Made by a program: the position numbers and the translations under genes. Below the pieces are notes generated by a model. It searched no databases and was not told where the DNA came from. It was given only the letters and a program-made list of their open reading frames with translations. A DNA stretch of 12,866 bases from NCBI GenBank assembly GCA_023441105.1, contig JAEZQX010000545.1, forward strand, positions 1 through 12,866, in the 5' to 3' direction. This document shows positions 1-8,038 of this stretch, piece by piece (the first letter of the stretch is position 1; each line of letters starts with the position of its first letter). Origin of the DNA: Pseudomonadota bacterium. Its GTDB lineage: Bacteria > Pseudomonadota > Gammaproteobacteria > Burkholderiales > Burkholderiaceae.

Positions 1-891
1 GCCGGCGGCGGCGCCCTTGCCGCGGATCTGCGTCAGCGCATCGGTGTCCTCCACCGCGATGCGCTGCACCTGGTCCCAGCACCATTCGCGCACGCAGCTC
101 GAGACGATGGCCTTCAGGTCGGCCGGCAGCGCATCCCACTTGCCCTTGTTGACGGCGAACTCCTGCGACGGCATCGAATGGCCGATGCGGATCGACGTCT
201 TGGCCACCTCGAAGAAGCCCATGCGATGGTTCATCGATTCGGTCGCCCAGTCGGCGGCATCGACCACGCCCTTGTCGAGCGCCGAATAGACCTCGCCACC
301 CGGCACCACGATGATCGAGGCGCCGAGCTTGCTGATGATCTCGGCGAACATCCCCTGCGGGGTACGCACCTTGAGACCCTTGAAATCATCGGTGGTCTTG
401 AGCGGCTTCTTCGACACCAGCGCCTCCTGGCCCCACCAGCTCACCCCGACCGGATAGACGTTGTAGCGGGCATAGGCCTCGCGCAGCATGTCCAGGCCGC
501 CACGGTGGTAGTACCAGGCCTCCGCCTGCCAGGGATGCTGGTAGGCGAAGTTGAGGTCGCCGATCACCGAGAAGCCGGGATCCTTGCCGGCCCAGTAGAC
601 GGGCGCGGTCGACTGGGCATCCAGCACGCCGGCGGAGACCGCATCCAGGGTCTCGAACACGCCGACCACGGCACCGGCCGAGAACGGCTGGATCTCCAGC
701 CGGCCGCCGGTGGCGGCGCTGACGCGCTTGCAGAAATCCTCGAACGCCTTGTAGGTGGTCTCGGATGCGCTCCACATCGACTGGGCGCGCCAGCGGATCT
801 TCGGCTGCGACAGCGCGATGGCCGGGGCGCCGATGGCGGATGCCGCCGCCGCGGACGCGATGAAGTTCCGACGCGAGATGCTTCCTGCCAT
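1..891 (-). CDS. TRAP transporter substrate-binding protein, DctP/TakP-like (3' end cut by window)
   Basis: Periplasmic binding protein of a tripartite ATP-independent (TRAP) importer. It captures an organic anion and hands it to the membrane subunits. The 297 visible codons are open to the window edge, so the C-terminus is missing. The N-terminus has a twin-arginine motif (SRRNFIA, residues 6-12) followed by an Ala-rich stretch that should be cleaved near residue 30. Family marks are VYWAGKDP (98-105), FKGLKVRTPQG (170-180, with the conserved ligand-binding Arg176) and PGGEVYSALDKGVVDAADW (197-215). This wording resembles TakP, a 2-oxoacid binder, more than the C4-dicarboxylate DctP group, so a keto or hydroxy acid ligand is an inference. 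The start is set by a GGAG seven bases upstream. A strong promoter and a GATATATC palindrome precede it. Membrane genes (dctQ, dctM) would be expected further left, outside the window. Confidence 0.93.
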   Translation of the reverse strand, partial: MAGSISRRNFIASAAAASAIGAPAIALSQPKIRWRAQSMWSASETTYKAFEDFCKRVSAATGGRLEIQPFSAGAVVGVFETLDAVSAGVLDAQSTAPVYWAGKDPGFSVIGDLNFAYQHPWQAEAWYYHRGGLDMLREAYARYNVYPVGVSWWGQEALVSKKPLKTTDDFKGLKVRTPQGMFAEIISKLGASIIVVPGGEVYSALDKGVVDAADWATESMNHRMGFFEVAKTSIRIGHSMPSQEFAVNKGKWDALPADLKAIVSSCVREWCWDQVQRIAVEDTDALTQIRGKGAAAG

Positions 892-943: not shown

Positions 944-953
944 TGATATATCA
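944..953. promoter_or_regulatory. Palindromic operator candidate TGATATATCA (site 1)
   Basis: This is a perfect 10-bp palindrome with the core GATATATC. It covers the expected transcription start of the TRAP gene, where a bound repressor would block initiation. The same 8-bp core recurs at 3174-3181 and 4016-4023. Short AT-rich palindromes of this kind are typical targets of FCD-type GntR regulators, two of which are encoded in this window. Which one binds is inference. Confidence 0.6.
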
Positions 954-958
954 CAAAA

Positions 959-987
959 ATAGTAAACAACCGTCTGCGGGGCGTCAA
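959..987 (-). promoter_or_regulatory. Sigma-70-like promoter of the TRAP binding-protein gene
   Basis: Read on the minus strand, a -35 box TTGACG (982-987) and a -10 box TACTAT (959-964) are separated by exactly 17 bp. Transcription should start near 952, about 60 bases before the ATG at 891. The match is 5/6 and 4/6 to consensus. The AT-rich block stands out in otherwise GC-rich DNA. Confidence 0.65.
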
Positions 988-1139
988 ATGGCGCGGCGAA
1001 AGCCGGCAGGCAGCCTTTGTTCGGAGGTGGGGAGAAGGGGTAGAGGCGTCGAGCGCCGAGGGCGCCTGCAGCAAGGGCGAGCCCGCCCAGGGGGGCGGAG
1101 GGGGTCGAACGGGACGCGCGAACGCGATCGCGCCGCTGC

Positions 1140-2018
1140 CTAGAACTTCTCGGACAGCGTGGCGCGGGTGAAACCTTCGACGTAGTCGAGCACCGCATCG
1201 GCGGCGGCACTCGCCTGGGCTTCGTCGCCCCGGGCGATGGCATCCATGACGTCGGCGTGGTGATCGCAGGCCAGCTCCAGGTCGCGGGCGGTGCGGTGGT
1301 GCAGATAGTAGAAGCGGCGCGACATGGCGTGGCAGGGTGCGATCGCGGTGGCAGCGAAGGGGTTGCGGGTGGCCTGCAGCGCGAGCGCCTCGGCCTGGAT
1401 ATGGACCCGGAAAAAGGCCAGCACATCGCCGCGATCGCCCGCTTCGCGCAGGGCGCGGGCGAAGTCGGCGAACTGGCGGGCCTCGGCGCCGGTACGGCGG
1501 CGGGCGGCGCGGGAGGCCACCAGCCGCTCGAGCTCGCGGCGCGTCTCCAGCAGCAGCAGCTGCCGTTCGACATTGATCTCGGTGATCTGCACGCCGTGGC
1601 GCTGCACGATGCGCACCAGATGGCAGGACTCGAGGCGCTTGAGCGCCTCCCGGACGGGGGTGCGGCCGAAGCCGGTGAGGTTGGCAAGTGCGCCCTCGGA
1701 CCACATGCTGCCGGGCGCGAGCTGGTGGGTGACGATCATCTCCTCCAGCTTTTCCAATGCCTGGGCCGCCAGCCCCGGCCGCCTGAGGTTCGCTGCCACC
1801 GGCTGCTGCAGGGCCGCGACCGGCGACGGCGTGCTGCCGGGCGGCAGAGTGGCGGCGGGCGCTGGCGTGCCGCTCCGCGCGCTCCGGGCGCTGTTCGGGG
1901 CGGAGTCCGGGGAGCTGGTCTGAACTGCTGGGCGGGGGCTGGGATCGTTCACGGGATCGCTGTCTGCTCGGTCGATGCACGGCGCCGGTCCGCGCAGGCG
2001 CGGCTGCGCGGATCCCAC
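1140..2018 (-). CDS. GntR-family transcriptional regulator, FCD subfamily, with long N-terminal extension
   Basis: DNA-binding regulator of 292 residues. The winged helix lies at about 85-145 and includes the GntR signature GRTPVREALKRLE (118-130). The rest is an all-helical FCD ligand-binding domain ending with HHADVMDAIARGDEAQA (253-269). Residues 1-80 are rich in Pro, Ala and Ser and match no domain I know. The start is uncertain: this frame opens with GTG at 2018, other GTG codons at 1952 and 1799 are possible, and none has a good ribosome site. A possible -10 (CATACT, 2034-2039) would leave a very short leader for the first. FCD metal ligands look incomplete: His206 and His253/254 are present, but the usual Asp three residues before the first His and the last His are missing. 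It is divergent from the Bug gene and upstream of the TRAP gene, so it probably controls one or both. Confidence 0.87.
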   Translation of the reverse strand: MGSAQPRLRGPAPCIDRADSDPVNDPSPRPAVQTSSPDSAPNSARSARSGTPAPAATLPPGSTPSPVAALQQPVAANLRRPGLAAQALEKLEEMIVTHQLAPGSMWSEGALANLTGFGRTPVREALKRLESCHLVRIVQRHGVQITEINVERQLLLLETRRELERLVASRAARRRTGAEARQFADFARALREAGDRGDVLAFFRVHIQAEALALQATRNPFAATAIAPCHAMSRRFYYLHHRTARDLELACDHHADVMDAIARGDEAQASAAADAVLDYVEGFTRATLSEKF

Positions 2019-2175
2019 ACGCCGACTCGACCAAGTATGACATGCGGCACCCGGGCATAAACCCTAGGGCTCGCTGGCGGGTTGCCGGCCGGTTGGCGTC
2101 GGGAATTGCGGCAGAATCGGCTCTCCAGAGGTTGACCAACGATCACTGCCGGATCCCGGCGCGGAGACACCATCC

Positions 2176-3144
2176 ATGACGCATCGTCGCCAATTCCTGC
2201 TCGGCGCAGGTGGACTGGCCCTGTCCAGCCAGCTTCCCGTTCGCGCGCAGTCCTTCCCCAGTCGCGCGGTGACCCTCTACTGCGCCTTTCCCGCCGGCGG
2301 CCCGACCGACCAGGTGTTCCGCGCCTTCGGCGAGGCCGCATCGCACACCCTCGGCCAGCCGGTGGTGGTGGAGAACAAGCCCGGCGCCGGCGGCACGCTG
2401 GCAGCGCTGGCGATGCGCAACGCCCGGCCGGACGGCTACACGCTGGCGCAGATGCCGATGGGGATGTTCCGCATCCCCCACATGCAGAAGACCCAGACCT
2501 TCGATCCCATCAAGGACTTCACCTACGTCATCAACCTGACCGGCTACACCTTCGGGCTGGTGATCCCCTCGGACTCGCCCATCAAGTCGATCAAGGAACT
2601 GGTCGAGTACGCCAAGAAAAATCCTGGCCAGTTCAGCTATGGCTCCACCGGCGTCGGCACGTCGCCGCACCTGGCGGTCGAGGAATTCGCCTCGCGCGCC
2701 GGCATCAAGCTGAACCACGTGCCGTTCAAGGGCAGCGCCGACCTGATGCAGGCGGTGGTGGGCGGGCACGTGATGTCCGCGAGCGATTCCACCGGCTGGG
2801 CACCGTACGTCGAATCGAAGCGGCTGCGCCTGCTGGCCACCTACGGCAGCAAGCGCACGCGGCGCTGGCCGGACGTGCCGACGCTCAACGAGCTCGGCTT
2901 CGAGACCGTGTCGGATTCTCCTTTCGGGCTCGGCGGGCCGCGCAACATGGATCCGCAGGCGGTCAAGGTGCTGCACGACGCCTTCCGCAAGGCGACCGAG
3001 GAGCCCAACGTCCTCAAGATGCTGGAGCGCTACGACCAGCCGGTGGTCTACATGAGCCCGGACGAATACACCGCCTGGGCCAAGAAGACTTATGAATCGG
3101 AGCGGGAGACCATCGAGCGGCTGGGGATGAAAGGGTCGATCTGA
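2176..3144 (+). CDS. Tripartite tricarboxylate transporter (Bug family) substrate-binding protein
   Basis: Periplasmic extracytoplasmic binding protein of 322 residues, full length for the family. A signal peptide with a twin-arginine-like start (HRRQFLLG, 3-10) ends near VRAQ (22-25). Bug motifs in order are FPAGGPTD (38-45), VENKPGAGG (65-73), YGSTGVGTSPHLA (155-167) and HVPFKGSADLMQAVVGGHV (181-199). Bug proteins bind carboxylates or small amides in a closed cleft; the ligand here cannot be told. No TctA/TctB membrane genes are nearby, so it is one of the many orphan Bug proteins of betaproteobacteria, which may share membrane parts or act as sensors. GGAGA at 2163-2167 sets the start. It is divergent from the GntR gene ending at 1140, which suggests that regulator as its controller. 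Confidence 0.95.
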   Translation: MTHRRQFLLGAGGLALSSQLPVRAQSFPSRAVTLYCAFPAGGPTDQVFRAFGEAASHTLGQPVVVENKPGAGGTLAALAMRNARPDGYTLAQMPMGMFRIPHMQKTQTFDPIKDFTYVINLTGYTFGLVIPSDSPIKSIKELVEYAKKNPGQFSYGSTGVGTSPHLAVEEFASRAGIKLNHVPFKGSADLMQAVVGGHVMSASDSTGWAPYVESKRLRLLATYGSKRTRRWPDVPTLNELGFETVSDSPFGLGGPRNMDPQAVKVLHDAFRKATEEPNVLKMLERYDQPVVYMSPDEYTAWAKKTYESERETIERLGMKGSI

Positions 3145-3172
3145 CCTCACGGCTGCGGCCGTAGCTGTTGTA

Positions 3173-3182
3173 CGATATATCG
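3173..3182. promoter_or_regulatory. Palindromic operator candidate CGATATATCG (site 2)
   Basis: This is a perfect 10-bp palindrome with the GATATATC core, 36 bp upstream of the ATG of the GntR gene at 3219. It is placed as expected for autoregulation. I could not assign clear -35 and -10 boxes here; the AT-rich core itself could serve as part of a -10. Confidence 0.55.
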
Positions 3183-3185
3183 CGA

Positions 3186-3204
3186 CGCGGCCATTCCGGC
3201 CGCG
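3186..3204 (+). other. Hairpin in the leader of the second GntR gene
   Basis: CGCGGCC (3186-3192) and GGCCGCG (3198-3204) form a perfect 7-bp stem around the loop ATTCC. It lies between the palindromic operator and the ribosome site at 3211. It could stabilise the 5' end of the message or limit its translation, or it could be a chance product of high GC. No U-run follows, so it is not a standard terminator. Confidence 0.35.
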
Positions 3205-3210
3205 CTGAAC

Positions 3211-3214
3211 GGAG
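3211..3214 (+). promoter_or_regulatory. Ribosome binding site deciding the GntR start
   Basis: GGAG four bases before the ATG at 3219. The frame is open further up to a TTG at 3168, but that start has no ribosome site and would put the operator inside the gene, so 3219 is preferred. Confidence 0.6.
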
Positions 3215-3218
3215 CGCC

Positions 3219-3932
3219 ATGTCGACGGCAGCATCGACCGACCGTGCCGGCCACGTCGTTCCTCGCGATCTCGGCGTCAGCGGCCACCTTTTACGCGGCG
3301 AGACGCTTGCCGACCAGGCCTACGAACGCCTGCGCCAGGGCATGATGAGCGGCTCCCTCAAGCCCGAGCAGGTGTTGAGCGTGCGCAGCGTCGCTGCGGC
3401 CTTCGGTGTCAGCCTGACGCCGGTGCGGGAGGCCATCCAGCGGCTGGTGGCCGAGCGGGCGCTGACCATCGAGAACGGCCGGACCATCCGGGTGCCGCGG
3501 CTCGATCTCGAGACCTATCGCGAGATCCTGCGGATCCGGCTGGAGCTGGAATACATGGCAGCCCGCGACGCCGCGGCGCGCATCGACGACGATGAGATCG
3601 ATGCCCTGGAGCAGCTCGCCGAAGCGCACCGTGCGGCGATCGCGGCGGGCGACGCTTCCCGGACCCTGGCTGCCAACACCGAATTCCACCTGCGGCTGTA
3701 CCGCGCCAGCGGTTGCGACATCCTCTGCGGGATCATCGAAAGCCTCTGGCTGCGGGTCGGCCCGACGCTCAACCTGCTGTTCCCGAAGTATTCCGGCAGC
3801 CTGCTGGGCCACGAGATGCACATGGTGGCGATCGAAGCCTTGCGCCGCCGCGACGGCGACACCGTGGGCCGGACGATGCGCGACGATCTGGTACACGGGT
3901 CGAAGTACCTGCTGCGGCTATTGAAGCCGTAG
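3219..3932 (+). CDS. GntR-family transcriptional regulator, FCD subfamily
   Basis: DNA-binding regulator of 237 residues, normal length for the FCD group. The winged helix spans about 28-95, with the signature FGVSLTPVREAIQRLV (62-77). The FCD domain (about 100-232) keeps the metal-site pattern: Asn153 and His157 (NTEFH), His201 (in HEMHMVAIEAL) and His226 (DDLVHG). It therefore likely binds a metal ion and a small organic acid that relieves repression. The ATG at 3219 has GGAG just upstream. A GATATATC palindrome lies 36 bp before the start, and another sits in the promoter of the TauA-like operon that follows 152 bp downstream on the same strand. It is the best candidate for the protein binding that motif. 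The stop codon sits in a 14-bp tandem duplication. Confidence 0.92.
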   Translation: MSTAASTDRAGHVVPRDLGVSGHLLRGETLADQAYERLRQGMMSGSLKPEQVLSVRSVAAAFGVSLTPVREAIQRLVAERALTIENGRTIRVPRLDLETYREILRIRLELEYMAARDAAARIDDDEIDALEQLAEAHRAAIAAGDASRTLAANTEFHLRLYRASGCDILCGIIESLWLRVGPTLNLLFPKYSGSLLGHEMHMVAIEALRRRDGDTVGRTMRDDLVHGSKYLLRLLKP

Positions 3933-3948
3933 CGTTGAAGCCGTAGCG
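3921..3948. repeat. Perfect 14-bp tandem duplication over a stop codon
   Basis: TTGAAGCCGTAGCG occurs at 3921-3934 and again at 3935-3948 with no gap. The TAG stop of the GntR gene (3930-3932) lies in the first copy, and an identical TAG in the second copy is therefore untranslated. It looks like a replication-slippage or short duplication event. Confidence 0.9.
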
Positions 3949-3965
3949 CTGCGCTGCCGCAGCGC
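3946..3965 (+). terminator. Strong hairpin after the GntR gene, possible terminator
   Basis: GCGCTGCG (3946-3953) and CGCAGCGC (3958-3965) make a perfect 8-bp GC-rich stem with the loop CTGC, 14 bases after the stop codon. No T-run follows, so an intrinsic terminator of the classical type is not shown; pausing or 3'-end protection is possible. It separates the regulator from the promoter at 4011. Confidence 0.42.
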
Positions 3966-4010
3966 GCCGGGGTGCCAGACGCCCCAAAATCGCTGCCGGC
4001 TTCACCGCCA

Positions 4011-4039
4011 TTGACGATATATCAAGTAACACATAGCAT
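4011..4039 (+). promoter_or_regulatory. Sigma-70-like promoter of the TauA-like operon
   Basis: A -35 box TTGACG (4011-4016) and a -10 box TAGCAT (4034-4039) are 17 bp apart. Transcription should start near 4046, about 40 bases before the ATG at 4085. The match is 5/6 and 4/6. The GATATATC palindrome begins on the last base of the -35 box. Confidence 0.62.
4016..4023. promoter_or_regulatory. Palindromic operator candidate GATATATC (site 3)
   Basis: This is the same 8-bp core as sites 1 and 2, here inside the promoter spacer directly behind the -35 box. Binding there would compete with RNA polymerase. The flanks (TTGAC on the left, AAGTAA on the right) are less symmetrical than at the other two sites. 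Confidence 0.6.
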
Positions 4040-4084: not shown

Positions 4085-5122
4085 ATGAAGCTCAGCCTGT
4101 CGCGTCGCGAATTCAACCTGGTGGCGTCCAAGATGGTGGCCACATCGGTGGCCGGCGGCTCGCTGCTGACGGCCGGCCGGGTGCTGGCACAGCCGAAGAA
4201 AGTCAGCCTGGGGACCTTCGGCAACATCGACGTGCAGAACTACATCCGCGCCAGCAAGAGCATGGCGAAGACCTTCGGCCCCGACACCGCGGTCGACTTC
4301 GTCACCGTGCGCGCGGGCTCTGAGGTTCTCTCGGCGATGGCGGGCGGCAGCCTCGACATGTGCAACGTCGGCTCGAGCCCGATGGTGGTGGGGTACGCCA
4401 ACGGCGTGAAGGCATCGCTGGTGTACATCTACAAGAGCATCATCGACAGCGAATGCCTGGTGGTGCAGAAGGCGGCGGGCATCACCCGGCTCGCCGACCT
4501 GAAGGGCAAGCGGATCGGCCTGCCGTTCAATACCTCGGTCCATTTCGCGGCGCTGGCCGCGCTCAAGCACGCCGGCCTGGGCATCGGCGACGTGCAGCTG
4601 ATCAACATGCGCGCCGACACGATCGCCTCGGTCTGGGCCCGGCGCGAGATCGATGCCGCCTACATCTGGATTCCGGTGCTGCCCAAGCTGGTGGAAGACA
4701 ACGGCGCGGTGATCTTCAAGACCGGCGACCTGAACAACATCGGACTGGCGATGTTCGATGCCTTCCTGGTGCGCGACGAATTCAAGAAGCGGCATCCGGA
4801 GCTGGTCCTCGCCTTCCTGAAGGATTTCGAACGGATCGCCGCCGACTTCAAGAACAATCCCAAGGAAGTGGTCGCCACCATGACCACGTTCCTCGGTGTC
4901 GACGAAGCCACGGTGACGCGTTCGCTCAATGCCTTCTACCCGGTGCCGGCACGCGAGCAACTGACCGACAAGTGGCTCGGCAAGCCGGGCCAGAAGGATT
5001 CGGCGGTGGTCAAGACCCTGCAGGTGCAGGCGCAGTTCCTGAAGGAGACCGGCCAGATCGGCGCGCTGCCGGCGGACATGAACGGTCTCGTCGACAGCAG
5101 TTTCGTCGCGCAGATGGTCTGA
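4085..5122 (+). CDS. ABC transporter substrate-binding protein, TauA/NitT-like
   Basis: Periplasmic binding protein of 345 residues, first gene of a four-gene operon. It starts with a twin-arginine motif (SRREFNLVA, 6-14), with likely cleavage after VLAQ near residue 36. The TauA/SsuA type is seen in FGNIDVQNYIRA (45-56), the sampling loop AGGSLDMCNVGSSPM (86-100), ADLKGKRIGLP (137-147) and REIDAAYIWIPVL (187-199), which matches the taurine-binding wording well. The family binds sulfonates, nitrate-like anions, pyrimidine precursors and aromatic acids. Taurine itself is only one option, since no taurine dioxygenase or sulfoacetaldehyde gene is near. GGAG at 4074-4077 lies seven bases before the ATG. 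The promoter at 4011-4039 carries the GATATATC motif. Confidence 0.93.
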   Translation: MKLSLSRREFNLVASKMVATSVAGGSLLTAGRVLAQPKKVSLGTFGNIDVQNYIRASKSMAKTFGPDTAVDFVTVRAGSEVLSAMAGGSLDMCNVGSSPMVVGYANGVKASLVYIYKSIIDSECLVVQKAAGITRLADLKGKRIGLPFNTSVHFAALAALKHAGLGIGDVQLINMRADTIASVWARREIDAAYIWIPVLPKLVEDNGAVIFKTGDLNNIGLAMFDAFLVRDEFKKRHPELVLAFLKDFERIAADFKNNPKEVVATMTTFLGVDEATVTRSLNAFYPVPAREQLTDKWLGKPGQKDSAVVKTLQVQAQFLKETGQIGALPADMNGLVDSSFVAQMV

Positions 5123-5125
5123 TCG

Positions 5126-5995
5126 ATGCGGCAGGACCTGGCCGGGCGCGAGCCGGCGACGCAGGCAACTCCCGCAGGTCAGGCCGGCGGGGCCGCGCCG
5201 GCTGCCGGTGTCAAGGCGCGCTTCGAAGAAGTCTCCAAGCGCTTCGGCAGCGGGCCGGATGCGGTCCAGGCGCTGCAGCCGATCAGCCTGGACATTGCGG
5301 AGAATGCCTTCGTCTGCCTGGTCGGGCCATCGGGATGCGGCAAGACCACGCTGCTCAACATCCTTGCCGGCTTCGAGACCGCCACCAGCGGGCGGGTGCT
5401 GATGGACGGCCGGCCGGTGGAGGGGCCGGATGCCAGCCGGGGCGTGGTGTTCCAGCAGGGGGCGCTGTTCACCTGGATGAACGTGCTCGACAACGTCGCG
5501 TTCGGGCCGATCGCGACCGGCAAGTCGCCGGCGCAAGCCCGCGCCATCGCCGGCCGGTTCCTCGAGGTGGTGGGGTTGGCGGGGTTCGCCCGGCGCTATC
5601 CGTACGAGCTGTCGGGCGGCATGCAGCAGCGGGTCGGCATCGCCAGGGCGCTCGCCAACGATCCCGAGATCCTGCTGATGGACGAGCCGTTTGCCGCGCT
5701 GGATGCCCAGACGCGCGAGTTGCTGCAGGAAGAGATCAAGCGGATCTGGCAGAGCACGCGCAAGACGGTCCTGTGGATCACGCACAGCATCGAGGAGGCG
5801 CTGTTCCTGGCCACCGACGTGGTCGTGATGTCCGCCCGCCCGGGCCGCATCAAGGCGACCTTCAGGCCGCAGTTCGCGCACAGCGAGGATCCCGCGGTGG
5901 TCGCCAGCGCCGACTTCATGCGGATGAAGGCCGAGATCTTCGGCCTGCTGCGCGAGGAGGCCCTCGCGGCGCAGCGGCAGGAGGAGGCGCGATGA
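5126..5995 (+). CDS. ABC transporter ATP-binding protein, TauB/SsuB-like
   Basis: Cytoplasmic ATPase that drives the importer, 289 residues. All key motifs are intact: Walker A GPSGCGKTT (67-75), Q-loop FQQGALFTW (109-117), ABC signature LSGGMQQR (162-169), Walker B ILLMDEPFAALD (182-193) and the H-loop His220. Residues 1-29 form a Gln/Ala/Gly-rich extension before the first strand and are not conserved in the family, so a later start is possible, although no better in-frame start was found. It begins three bases after the stop of the binding protein with a weak ribosome site, which suggests translational coupling. Its end overlaps the permease start by four bases (ATGA). Confidence 0.95.
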   Translation: MRQDLAGREPATQATPAGQAGGAAPAAGVKARFEEVSKRFGSGPDAVQALQPISLDIAENAFVCLVGPSGCGKTTLLNILAGFETATSGRVLMDGRPVEGPDASRGVVFQQGALFTWMNVLDNVAFGPIATGKSPAQARAIAGRFLEVVGLAGFARRYPYELSGGMQQRVGIARALANDPEILLMDEPFAALDAQTRELLQEEIKRIWQSTRKTVLWITHSIEEALFLATDVVVMSARPGRIKATFRPQFAHSEDPAVVASADFMRMKAEIFGLLREEALAAQRQEEAR

Positions 5996-6798
5996 GCGCC
6001 AGTGCAACCGCTGCCGCGCGCCGCTCGCGCTGGATCAACCTCGCCTCGTTCGCCGGCCTGCTCCTGCTCTGGGTACTGATCACCGCGCCGCTGTTCGGTG
6101 GCCAGCCGCTGGTGGCGCCGCTGTTCCTGCCATCGCCGGCTTCGGTGTACGACACGTTCCTGATGCTGATGAAGAACGGCTACCAGGGCAAGACCTTGTG
6201 GCAGCACATCGGCATCAGCCTGTTCCGGTTCGGCGTCGCCTTCGGCGTGACCATCCTGGTGGCCGTGCCGCTGGGGCTGTGGATGGGCATGAACCGGACG
6301 GTCAAGGCGATCCTCGATCCGCCGATCGAGATCACCAGGCCGATGCCGAAGCTGGCGCTGCTGCCGCTGCTGATCATCTGGTTCGGCATCGGCGAGCTGT
6401 CGAAGATCGTGATCATCGTGCTGGCGCTGTTCCCGATCCTCTCGATCAGCGCCATGCAGGCGGTCGGCGGGGTCGGCCGGCGCAAGGTGCAGGCGGCGAT
6501 GGCCCTGGGCGCCTCGCGGGCGATGATCTTCCGGCGAGTGATCTTTCCGGCCAGCCTGCCGGGCATCTTCACCAGCATCCGGGTGAGCATCGGCATCGGG
6601 GTGACGATGCTGGTGGGCGCGGAGCTGATCGCGACCAACGCCGGCATCGCCTACATGGCGATGTCGGCCTCGGATTTCCTGCTGACCAATGTCGTGATCG
6701 TCGGTGTGCTGATCATGGCGGTGCTCGGCTACACCCTCGACCTGCTGGCGCGGGCACTCGAGACCCGCATCGTCCACTGGGGCGGCAAGGAAGGCTGA
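5992..6798 (+). CDS. ABC transporter permease, TauC/SsuC-like
   Basis: Inner-membrane subunit of the importer, 268 residues with about six membrane segments (roughly 18-35, 75-97, 120-155 as two segments, 195-215 and 230-252). The cytoplasmic coupling loop that contacts the ATPase is clear: the EAA-type motif AAMALGASRAMIFRRVIFPA (168-187). RPMPKLALLPLLIIWFGIGE (116-135) is typical of the taurine/nitrate permease group. The ATG overlaps the ATPase stop (ATGA, 5992-5995) and is preceded by GAGGAGG at 5981-5987. The same frame is open far upstream, but that part is antiparallel to the codon use of the ATPase gene and is not coding. Confidence 0.95.
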   Translation: MSASATAAARRSRWINLASFAGLLLLWVLITAPLFGGQPLVAPLFLPSPASVYDTFLMLMKNGYQGKTLWQHIGISLFRFGVAFGVTILVAVPLGLWMGMNRTVKAILDPPIEITRPMPKLALLPLLIIWFGIGELSKIVIIVLALFPILSISAMQAVGGVGRRKVQAAMALGASRAMIFRRVIFPASLPGIFTSIRVSIGIGVTMLVGAELIATNAGIAYMAMSASDFLLTNVVIVGVLIMAVLGYTLDLLARALETRIVHWGGKEG

Positions 6799-6802
6799 CG
6801 AC

Positions 6803-8038
6803 ATGAACAGGATACCGCGGCAAGGGACCGCATGGCCGCAACTGCAGGAACGGATGCGGCAGGCCGCGGCGCAGGACATCGACTGGCGGCGGGGACGGGC
6901 GCCGGCCTATATCCACTACGCCGGCGAAGACGTGCTGGAAGTCGCCAAGCAGGCCTACCTGATGTTCTTCTCGGAGAACGGGCTCGGTCCGCGCGCCTTC
7001 GGCAGCCTGGCGCGCTTCGAGGCCGACATCGTCGCGATGGGCCTGGGGCTGCTGAACGGCGGCCCCGAGGCCCGCGGCGCGATGACGACCGGCGGCACCG
7101 AGAGCATCTTCCTGGCGGTCAAGGCCGCCCGCGACCTGGCGCGCCGCGAGCGGCCGGATCTGGCCAGGCCGGAGATCGTGCTGCCCTTCAGCGCCCATCC
7201 GGCGTTCGACAAGGCGGCGCATTTCCTCGGGCTGGCGACCGTCCGCGTGCCGTTGCGCGCCGACTTCACCGCCGATCCGGCGGCGATGGCGGCGGCGATC
7301 TCGCCCGCCACGGTGATGCTGGTCGGATCGGCTCCGGCCTATCCGCACGGCGTCGTCGATCCGATCGGGGCGATCGCTGCGCTGGCCCGGTCGCGCGAAC
7401 TGTGGATGCATGTCGATGCCTGCGTCGGCGGCTACATCGCGCCGTTCGCGCGGCAACTCGGCTACCCGGTCGAGGCGTTCGATTTCGCGGTCGACGGCGT
7501 CACCTCCATCTCCGCCGACCTGCACAAGTACGGCTATGCCGCGAAGGGCGCCTCGACACTGTTCTTCCGCGACGTCGCGTCGTTCGAGCTGATGGAATAC
7601 CGCTTCGACAACTGGCCGCGCGGGCAGTACTCGACCCGCACCCTGGTCGGCACCCGCGGCGGCGGCGCCATTGCGGCCGCCTGGGCGGTGATGAACTATC
7701 TCGGCGAGGAAGGCTACCTGCGGGTGACCGAGCGGGTCATCGCCACCCGTCGCGCCATCGAGGAAGGCCTGAAGCCTCTCGGCCTGCAGGCGCTGGGCAG
7801 GCCCGAGCTGTCGATCCTGGCCTACGGCTCACCGCTGCACGACATCGCCGCCATCGGCCGGGGCCTCGGCGCGCGCGGCTGGATGGTCGGCCACGTCCGG
7901 CAACCGGACGGCATCCACCTGATGCTCAACCTGACGCACGAGCCGATCGTCAGCGAATACCTCGCGGACGTGGCGCAGGCGGTCGAGGAGGCGAAGGCCG
8001 CGGGAGCCGGCGGGGCCGGCGTGGTCGCCCGCTACTGA
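6803..8038 (+). CDS. PLP-dependent enzyme of the sphingosine-1-phosphate lyase / group II decarboxylase family
   Basis: Soluble fold-type I PLP enzyme of 411 residues. Key marks are the phosphate-cup TTGGTES (95-101), ring-stacking His132 in SAHPAFDKA, Asp205 in HVDAC (pyridine nitrogen) and the Schiff-base Lys242 in SISADLHKYGYAAKG, with the second conserved Lys248. From memory the segments line up closely with human SGPL1, such as NGGPEARG and VTSISAD, but the N-terminal membrane anchor is absent. The LHPD segment of true lyases reads LGPR (61-64), and YASPT reads YSTRT (276-280). The likely reaction is retro-aldol cleavage or decarboxylation of an amino compound; the substrate is unknown. 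The ATG is four bases after the permease stop, with AAGGAAGG upstream, so it belongs to the importer operon and probably acts on what is imported. Confidence 0.92.
   Translation: MNRIPRQGTAWPQLQERMRQAAAQDIDWRRGRAPAYIHYAGEDVLEVAKQAYLMFFSENGLGPRAFGSLARFEADIVAMGLGLLNGGPEARGAMTTGGTESIFLAVKAARDLARRERPDLARPEIVLPFSAHPAFDKAAHFLGLATVRVPLRADFTADPAAMAAAISPATVMLVGSAPAYPHGVVDPIGAIAALARSRELWMHVDACVGGYIAPFARQLGYPVEAFDFAVDGVTSISADLHKYGYAAKGASTLFFRDVASFELMEYRFDNWPRGQYSTRTLVGTRGGGAIAAAWAVMNYLGEEGYLRVTERVIATRRAIEEGLKPLGLQALGRPELSILAYGSPLHDIAAIGRGLGARGWMVGHVRQPDGIHLMLNLTHEPIVSEYLADVAQAVEEAKAAGAGGAGVVARY

Follow-up and report, generated by a model that had tools for sequence, protein, structure and literature searches.

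In the 12,866-nucleotide contig JAEZQX010000545.1 (assembly GCA_023441105.1) of a Burkholderiaceae bacterium, which was analysed over its full length and is called the window below, a short palindrome, GATATATC, is found in three intergenic places. Our results indicate that two of these, O1 at 3174..3181 and O3 at 4016..4023, are very probably operators of GntR2, an FCD-type GntR regulator encoded at 3219..3932 on the plus strand, which would repress both its own gene and the following operon of tauABC-like transport genes and a decarboxylase gene; in most relatives of the window a further copy, O2, would strengthen this repression. Judging from the sequences compared here, the repeated palindrome is most likely a real regulator binding site serving the regulator's own gene and the neighbouring transport operon.

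The palindrome in the window

A preliminary description of this DNA, made from the letters alone, had placed an 8-bp core at 945-952, 3174-3181 and 4016-4023, always intergenic and upstream of a gene, and an exact search agrees, with exactly three copies of GATATATC in the window. No strand is assigned to these palindromic sites. The distances to the nearest plausible ATG are 53 bases for dctP (start 891, minus strand), 37 bases for gntR2 (3219) and 61 bases for tauA (4085). O1 extends to the 10-mer CGATATATCG; O3 covers the last base of the -35 element and part of the spacer of the predicted tauA promoter. An in-frame TTG at 3168 would place the 3174 site within gntR2, but the ATG at 3219 has the better leader (GGAGCGCC).

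Such an AT-rich 8-mer had been estimated to occur far less than once in 13 kb, and in fact 200 dinucleotide-preserving shuffles of the window contained 0.01 copies on average, with none of them holding three. The degenerate form RATATATY reveals no site in the window beyond the same three (shuffle mean 0.03; 0/200 reach three). Allowing one mismatch to GATATATC adds no window site either, yet 18 of the 200 shuffles then reach three, and thus the significance rests on the exact matches. Moreover in G001, the nearest relative genome examined (5.9 Mb) and the only one representing its genus, GATATATC occurs only 6 times, once before tauA as O3 and five times within some open frame of at least 90 amino acids; three copies within 3.1 kb are therefore not background.

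Conservation in orthologous loci

A contig scan gave 19 loci, of which 17 (L001-L017) carry orthologues of GntR2 at 63-78% identity; L018 and L019 (40% and 34% identity) were excluded from the ortholog counts, the codons of L018 being still inspected. The hosts of the 17 are Variovorax, Rhizobacter, Rubrivivax, Xylophilus, Pseudorhodoferax, Limnohabitans and metagenome-assembled genomes, two of them titled only Proteobacteria and Gammaproteobacteria. A sample of 399 genomes of the family yielded no additional GntR2 orthologue, its 7 matches at E <= 1e-50 being all already in the set. The nearest relatives seem to come from metagenome contigs.

The preliminary description had attributed to the regulator one site before its own gene and one before its downstream neighbour, and had proposed that upstream regions of orthologous loci be compared. 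This comparison revealed that both types of site are conserved. A counterpart of O3 with ATATAT is located between gntR and tauA in all 17 loci, in the forms TTGAATATATTCAA, TTGACGATATATC, TTGACAATATATTC or close to them, and a TATA-centred counterpart of O1 (GARTATATTC or close, usually AGAGTATATTCA) precedes gntR in 15 of the 17, with a weak one in a further locus. A profile was built from 49 training sites, for which the poor O1 of L016 was rejected and the weak O1 of L003 kept, and which omit the window's own sites; with this profile O1 and O3 of the window score 16.9 and 16.2, the top two values in 12.9 kb. The palindrome as an operator-like element is thus upheld, while the 8-bp core as its unit is not, since the conserved core is wider, ATATAT-centred and often TTGAATATATTCAA.

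It would be highly improbable that the sites are chance occurrences, or AT-rich -10 elements serving no regulator. The TATATT before gntR in relatives does resemble a -10 hexamer, but ATATAT is kept before tauA without exception, the window copy there lies in the spacer and not at the -10, and another copy lies within a gene.

A copy inside the regulator gene

Earlier, no copy had been seen inside a gene. This is right for the window and wrong for the family, as 16 of the 17 orthologues carry a third copy, O2, within gntR at the Ser-Ile-Tyr-Arg codons, 262-296 bp upstream of O3. Its invariant letters, TC[AG]ATATATCG, are of the ATATAT-centred type, like O3. The equivalent place in the window, at 3684..3710 on the plus strand (FHLRLYRAS codons), reads CTG CGG CTG TAC CGC. 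Among the matches listed, SIYR is present in 91 of 99 proteins and R-L/M-Y-R in 8, including that of the window and its closest relatives.

The codons underlying O2 are unusual (the statistics omit L001 and the window, both of which are without O2). Ile160 is encoded by ATA in 16/16 O2 loci, against 25 of 993 background isoleucine codons, 19 of these 25 coming from the low-GC loci L014 and L016; this background was drawn by tblastn from the tauABC and decarboxylase genes in the same loci, and it contains one stray paralogue stretch (L009) as well as a brief overlap (L002). The other five conserved isoleucine columns of gntR show no ATA in four cases and a single one in the fifth. There are 94 columns where the amino acid is the same in all 16 loci and the code is degenerate. 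Five of them are written with one codon throughout, which is a non-preferred codon in columns 160 and 161 alone. No column among the 211 scores higher for rare codons than Ile160, at z = 25 (mean 0.9, standard deviation 2.6). Between pairs of loci, conserved codons of four-fold or higher degeneracy differ at 14-76% (median 49%), so that common descent by itself explains the O2 codons poorly, as far as can be judged without a phylogenetic model. An extra copy of the putative operator is thus kept within the regulator gene by unusually rare codons in most of the relatives examined.

Another way to understand these codons is that they are kept for protein or translation reasons, such as a slow ATA codon for folding or an mRNA signal, and have nothing to do with an operator. 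In favour of this, rare codons span columns 155-162 except 157, which is beyond the palindrome, and columns 188, 196, 236 and 237 elsewhere in the gene are also high, at z 5-8. However, the invariant letters are of the same type as O3, the arginine after the tyrosine is CGA in 9 of the 16, which adds one more palindrome letter, and Ile160 stands far over all other columns. We regard it as unlikely that O2 is kept for protein or translation reasons.

Specificity in the genomes of relatives

Genome-wide counts were made in the genomes of 16 relatives (that of L007 is not among them). The strict pattern TGARTATATTCA is present in 6 of the 16, once in each, and every time it is O3. TCRATATATCG is found in all 16; with its places matched to the loci by coordinate arithmetic, it includes O2 in all 15 carriers of O2 and is the sole copy in 11 of these 15. 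Searched for in this strict way, O2 and O3 hardly occur outside the gntR-tauA locus in the relatives, which makes the whole look like a local self-regulated switch. The looser KNRATATATYN was rejected as the definition of a regulon, being too common genome-wide.

When the profile is run over the ortholog loci, 23 matches outside the training set score at least 10 in 292 kb. The best among the 14 matches listed, L012:7053, overlaps a different palindrome before the frame of a putative Bug-type receptor, and that at L009:10918 falls within the tauA reading frame. The palindrome in question, ATGCAAGCGCTTGCAT at L012:7057-7072, overlaps TGACAATATAT and precedes a TctC/Bug-like receptor frame (assigned by eye and by a TctC match); it is probably the operator of another regulator.

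The regulator and its presumed DNA-reading position

GntR2 matches the Pfam models GntR (PF00392, 65.4 bits) and FCD (PF07729, 89.1 bits), both over cut-off, and thereby has the domains of an FCD-type GntR regulator of the FadR subfamily; within this it is McbR-like, McbR of E. coli being a distant relative. For the best 120 of 482 homologous proteins, the group around it is continuous to about 57% identity and then falls to 46%. By analogy with Atu1419, a characterised FCD regulator, Asn153, His157, His201 and His226 were taken as metal ligands, and the Asn/Asp and three histidines expected of the FCD family would thus be present. The first three are kept in 32 of 32 aligned GntR2 proteins and His226 in 25 of 32, and the window protein has all four, just as the preliminary description had it in calling its metal residues intact.

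What distinguishes this group is position 38 of the helix-turn-helix (HTH), which is Leu (residue 66) in 32/32 aligned GntR2 proteins; "SL" is read at this place in 96 of 99 proteins among the matches listed, the other three being not parsed. In FadR, according to PMC4494728, Arg45 at this position reads the G of the GT..AC boxes, the FadR-type operator consensus is NyGTM-N0-1-KACNy, and other exceptions among FadR-type proteins exist. A GT..AC box is not what O2 and O3 show, as A/T occupies the box positions in O3 of 17/17 loci and in O2 of 16/16. Since exceptions of this kind are on record, the lack of the box weakens the motif claim only. Set in the frame of Atu1419, O2 and O3 read NNATATATNN, with A for G where Leu replaces Arg, which suggests a covariation of protein and DNA, Leu in place of Arg at HTH position 38 going with A in place of G in the putative operator.

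The tauA operon and its predicted promoter

The presumed regulated operon lies on the plus strand and begins with a tauA-like gene for a substrate-binding protein (4085..5122; Pfam NMT1), followed by a tauB-like ATPase gene of the ATP-binding cassette (ABC) type (5126..5995), a tauC-like permease gene (5989..6798) and the gene of a decarboxylase dependent on pyridoxal 5'-phosphate (6803..8038), of the sphingosine-1-phosphate-lyase/MfnA type. The order gntR-tauA-tauB is the same in 17/17 loci; tauC follows in 16, the contig of L010 ending before it, and the decarboxylase in 15, the contigs of L003 and L010 ending before it. The transporter appears related to that of taurine, but it scores below the cut-offs of the NCBIfam taurine models, with 193.5 bits against 304.25 for TauA (taurine_ABC_bnd), 256.5 against 357 for TauB and 220.7 against 342 for TauC, so that it is not assigned to TauABC proper. 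As for the decarboxylase, it is closest to sphingosine-1-phosphate lyases and to the MfnA tyrosine/aspartate decarboxylase, and its pairing with a taurine-like importer recurs in 15 of the 17 loci.

The tauA promoter is predicted as TTGACG at 4011-4016, a spacer of 17 nt and TAGCAT at 4034-4039. Between 880 and 4100 of the window there are two promoter-like sites, each adjoining a GATATATC, where shuffles give 0.2 on average. The same layout of O3 and promoter can be seen by eye in L001, L003, L008, L010 and L011-L013.

At L007:5910-5927, about 4 kb from gntR, there is also an inverted repeat, ACTGTATTTATGTACAGT, with the form CTGT-N8-ACAG, which we take to recall the LexA box.

The site at 945, dctP and GntR1

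The third copy of GATATATC, at 945..952, is a candidate target site before dctP (1..891, minus strand), which starts at 891, runs off the window and encodes a TRAP solute-binding protein (Pfam DctP; NCBIfam TRAP_S1 at 85.1 bits, over the cut-off of 50). The predicted minus-strand promoter of dctP consists of TTGACG at 987-982, a spacer of 17 nt and TACTAT at 964-959, and the palindrome lies 7-14 bases past this -10, over the likely start of transcription. Directly upstream of dctP lies gntR1 (1140..2018, minus strand), which encodes another FCD GntR regulator with Arg at the G-reading position (GRTPVR), and whose true start may be further in.

The preliminary description had seen in the three copies a small transport regulon with several promoters, and this was not borne out in the relatives, where O2 and O3 in their strict forms are nearly confined to one locus. 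No dctP or gntR1 was found in the 17 ortholog loci at E <= 1e-8 (flanks up to 10 kb, several of them shortened by contig ends), and the 945 site is therefore either particular to the lineage of the window or due to chance. With the profile the site scores 10.3, whereas none of the 49 training sites falls below 13.9, and a match at least as good turns up in 9 of 40 simulated windows. On the other side, the exact 8-mer is common to all three sites, and the copy at 945 stands just past a predicted -10, a typical position for a repressor; the promoter-like site concerned is one of just two between 880 and 4100. That GntR2 controls dctP in the window's own organism, together with its own gene and the tauA operon, seems to us evenly balanced between yes and no, and perhaps the 945 site is a second target gained in this lineage.

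The binder of GATATATC might also be sought in GntR1, at least for the site before dctP; gntR1 and dctP are neighbours on one strand, with dctP as the downstream gene, and so mirror the arrangement of gntR2 and tauA. We consider this quite unlikely. GntR1 has at HTH position 38 the Arg that reads G in FadR-type proteins (PMC4494728). Before its own gene, moreover, GTATGAC/GTCATAC is found at 2030-2045 of the window (GTATGAC at 2035), a FadR-type box of the GT-N3-AC form with 4 of 6 pairs complementary, which is a possible GntR1 operator. In 20 GntR1-like loci of 3.4-3.6 kb each, taken from 80 matches and having 41-49% identity, GATATATC is absent throughout and RATATATY is present in 6; a shared GT-N3-AC motif was not found among these 20 either. 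In addition, GntR2 orthologues keep their sites while none of the 17 loci has a gntR1 match at E <= 1e-8, and the whole genome of G001 has no gntR1 match at E <= 1e-30. GntR1 was rejected as the binder of GATATATC by reason of its Arg, its own GT-N3-AC site and the absence of the palindrome from 20/20 loci. GntR2, whose orthologues keep the sites, remains the regulator that fits best, as had been proposed.

Two further proteins touch on both regulators. P0004, a relative of GntR2 at 81%, and P0134, a relative of GntR1 at 77%, both list 14,293 bases as their longest contig. Relatives with both regulators therefore probably exist, and the two may be linked in another organism too.

Proposed mechanism and the points against it

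In the reading that we prefer, GntR2 probably binds O1 and O3 as a dimer. At O1 it would repress its own gene; at O3 it would cover the spacer between -35 and -10 and exclude RNA polymerase, thus repressing tauABC and the decarboxylase gene. Release of GntR2 would come from an effector, which may be the compound taken up by the transporter, bound in the FCD pocket; Asn153, His157, His201 and His226 are present for this. In relatives, O2 may strengthen the repression either through a loop to O3 or O1, or as a roadblock to elongation. A wider proposal we put forward only as a tentative possibility, and one somewhat less probable than its contrary: an FCD family would keep an operator in its own gene, held across genera by the invariant rare ATA-TAT, so that the gene body takes part in a three-operator loop or roadblock which sets the level of the regulator as well as that of the transport-decarboxylase operon, and the lineage of the window would have lost it and gained a distant operator at dctP.

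Several points weigh against repression by GntR2 through these sites. To assign O1, O2 and O3 in the loci, the best-scoring candidate within a search window was taken, with weights set by hand. O1 is weak in L003 (ATATTT), and no acceptable one exists in L016; O2 is missing both from the window itself and from L001; and the site at 945 has the low score given above. The spacings of O1, O2 and O3 give no firm sign of helical phasing (R 0.14-0.54, with a lowest p of 0.026 in nine tests). Moreover, one half-site of O1 retains in 13 of 16 cases the G (GAGTATATTC or close) whose loss is claimed. The looser KNRATATATYN occurs 4-38 times per genome (both strands summed, 16 genomes), against 0-12 for a reversed control, so that the core by itself also occurs outside the locus and weaker sites elsewhere are possible. 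Finally, no RATATATY is found in the mcbR region of E. coli, for which reason this region was rejected as a precedent.

Relation to known systems

The nearest solved chain to GntR2 by sequence is E. coli McbR/YncC (4P9F, E 3.8e-26), and an AlphaFold2 monomer model of GntR2, with a mean predicted local distance difference test (pLDDT) of 87.6, has the same protein as its closest fold (TM-score 0.81/0.90). McbR too has a non-Arg residue at the G-reading position, namely Ile (SITPVREA) in place of the Leu of GntR2, and an ATATAT motif is reported for it from chromatin immunoprecipitation sequencing in PMC13343897. ATATAT-type sites are present and conserved around GntR2, which may bind them. The two proteins are not the same, however, since their identity is 30%, His157 corresponds to an Arg in McbR, and no tauABC-like operon stands beside mcbR in E. 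coli. The best-scoring NCBIfam model of GntR2, PRK11414, which we take to be the McbR model, gives 119.7 bits against a cut-off of 225, and this leaves GntR2 outside that equivalog.

Another related system is Atu1419 of Agrobacterium fabrum, an FCD repressor of the VanR group whose 10-bp palindrome, ATGTATACAT, has the same frame as the GntR2 sites. According to PMC7797058, Atu1419 (Arg45) loses binding to this palindrome when G3 is changed to A and C8 to T, is a tetramer with a site for its own gene between -35 and -10, forms DNA loops seen by electron microscopy, and has a second, degenerate site within a target open reading frame (ORF). Atu1419 is a precedent for looping by an FCD repressor. 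The differences are that Arg45 requires G3, whereas GntR2 has Leu and O2 and O3 have A, and that the in-ORF site of Atu1419 is in the target gene, whereas O2 belongs to the regulator's own gene, where rare codons hold it in 16 of 17 orthologues. Likewise the lac operator O2, within lacZ, is an auxiliary operator situated in a coding sequence, which increases repression by way of a DNA loop; it belongs to a different protein family, and it too lies in the target gene and not in that of the regulator.

A local FCD repressor regulating itself is of a known kind; what sets the present case apart is a putative operator inside the gene, maintained by rare codons, and the proposed specificity for ATATAT. 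Among the matches listed from the open-licence PMC literature, judged by titles and the beginnings of abstracts, no description of this regulator, of the in-gene operator or of the motif was found. Altogether the analysis supplies a testable set of regulator and putative operators for a transport-decarboxylase operon found mainly in Burkholderiales. The suggested covariation of Leu and A matters, as the motifs of this large family are usually predicted from GT..AC, and the constraint acting inside the regulator gene suffices to preserve a rare codon in 16/16 orthologues.

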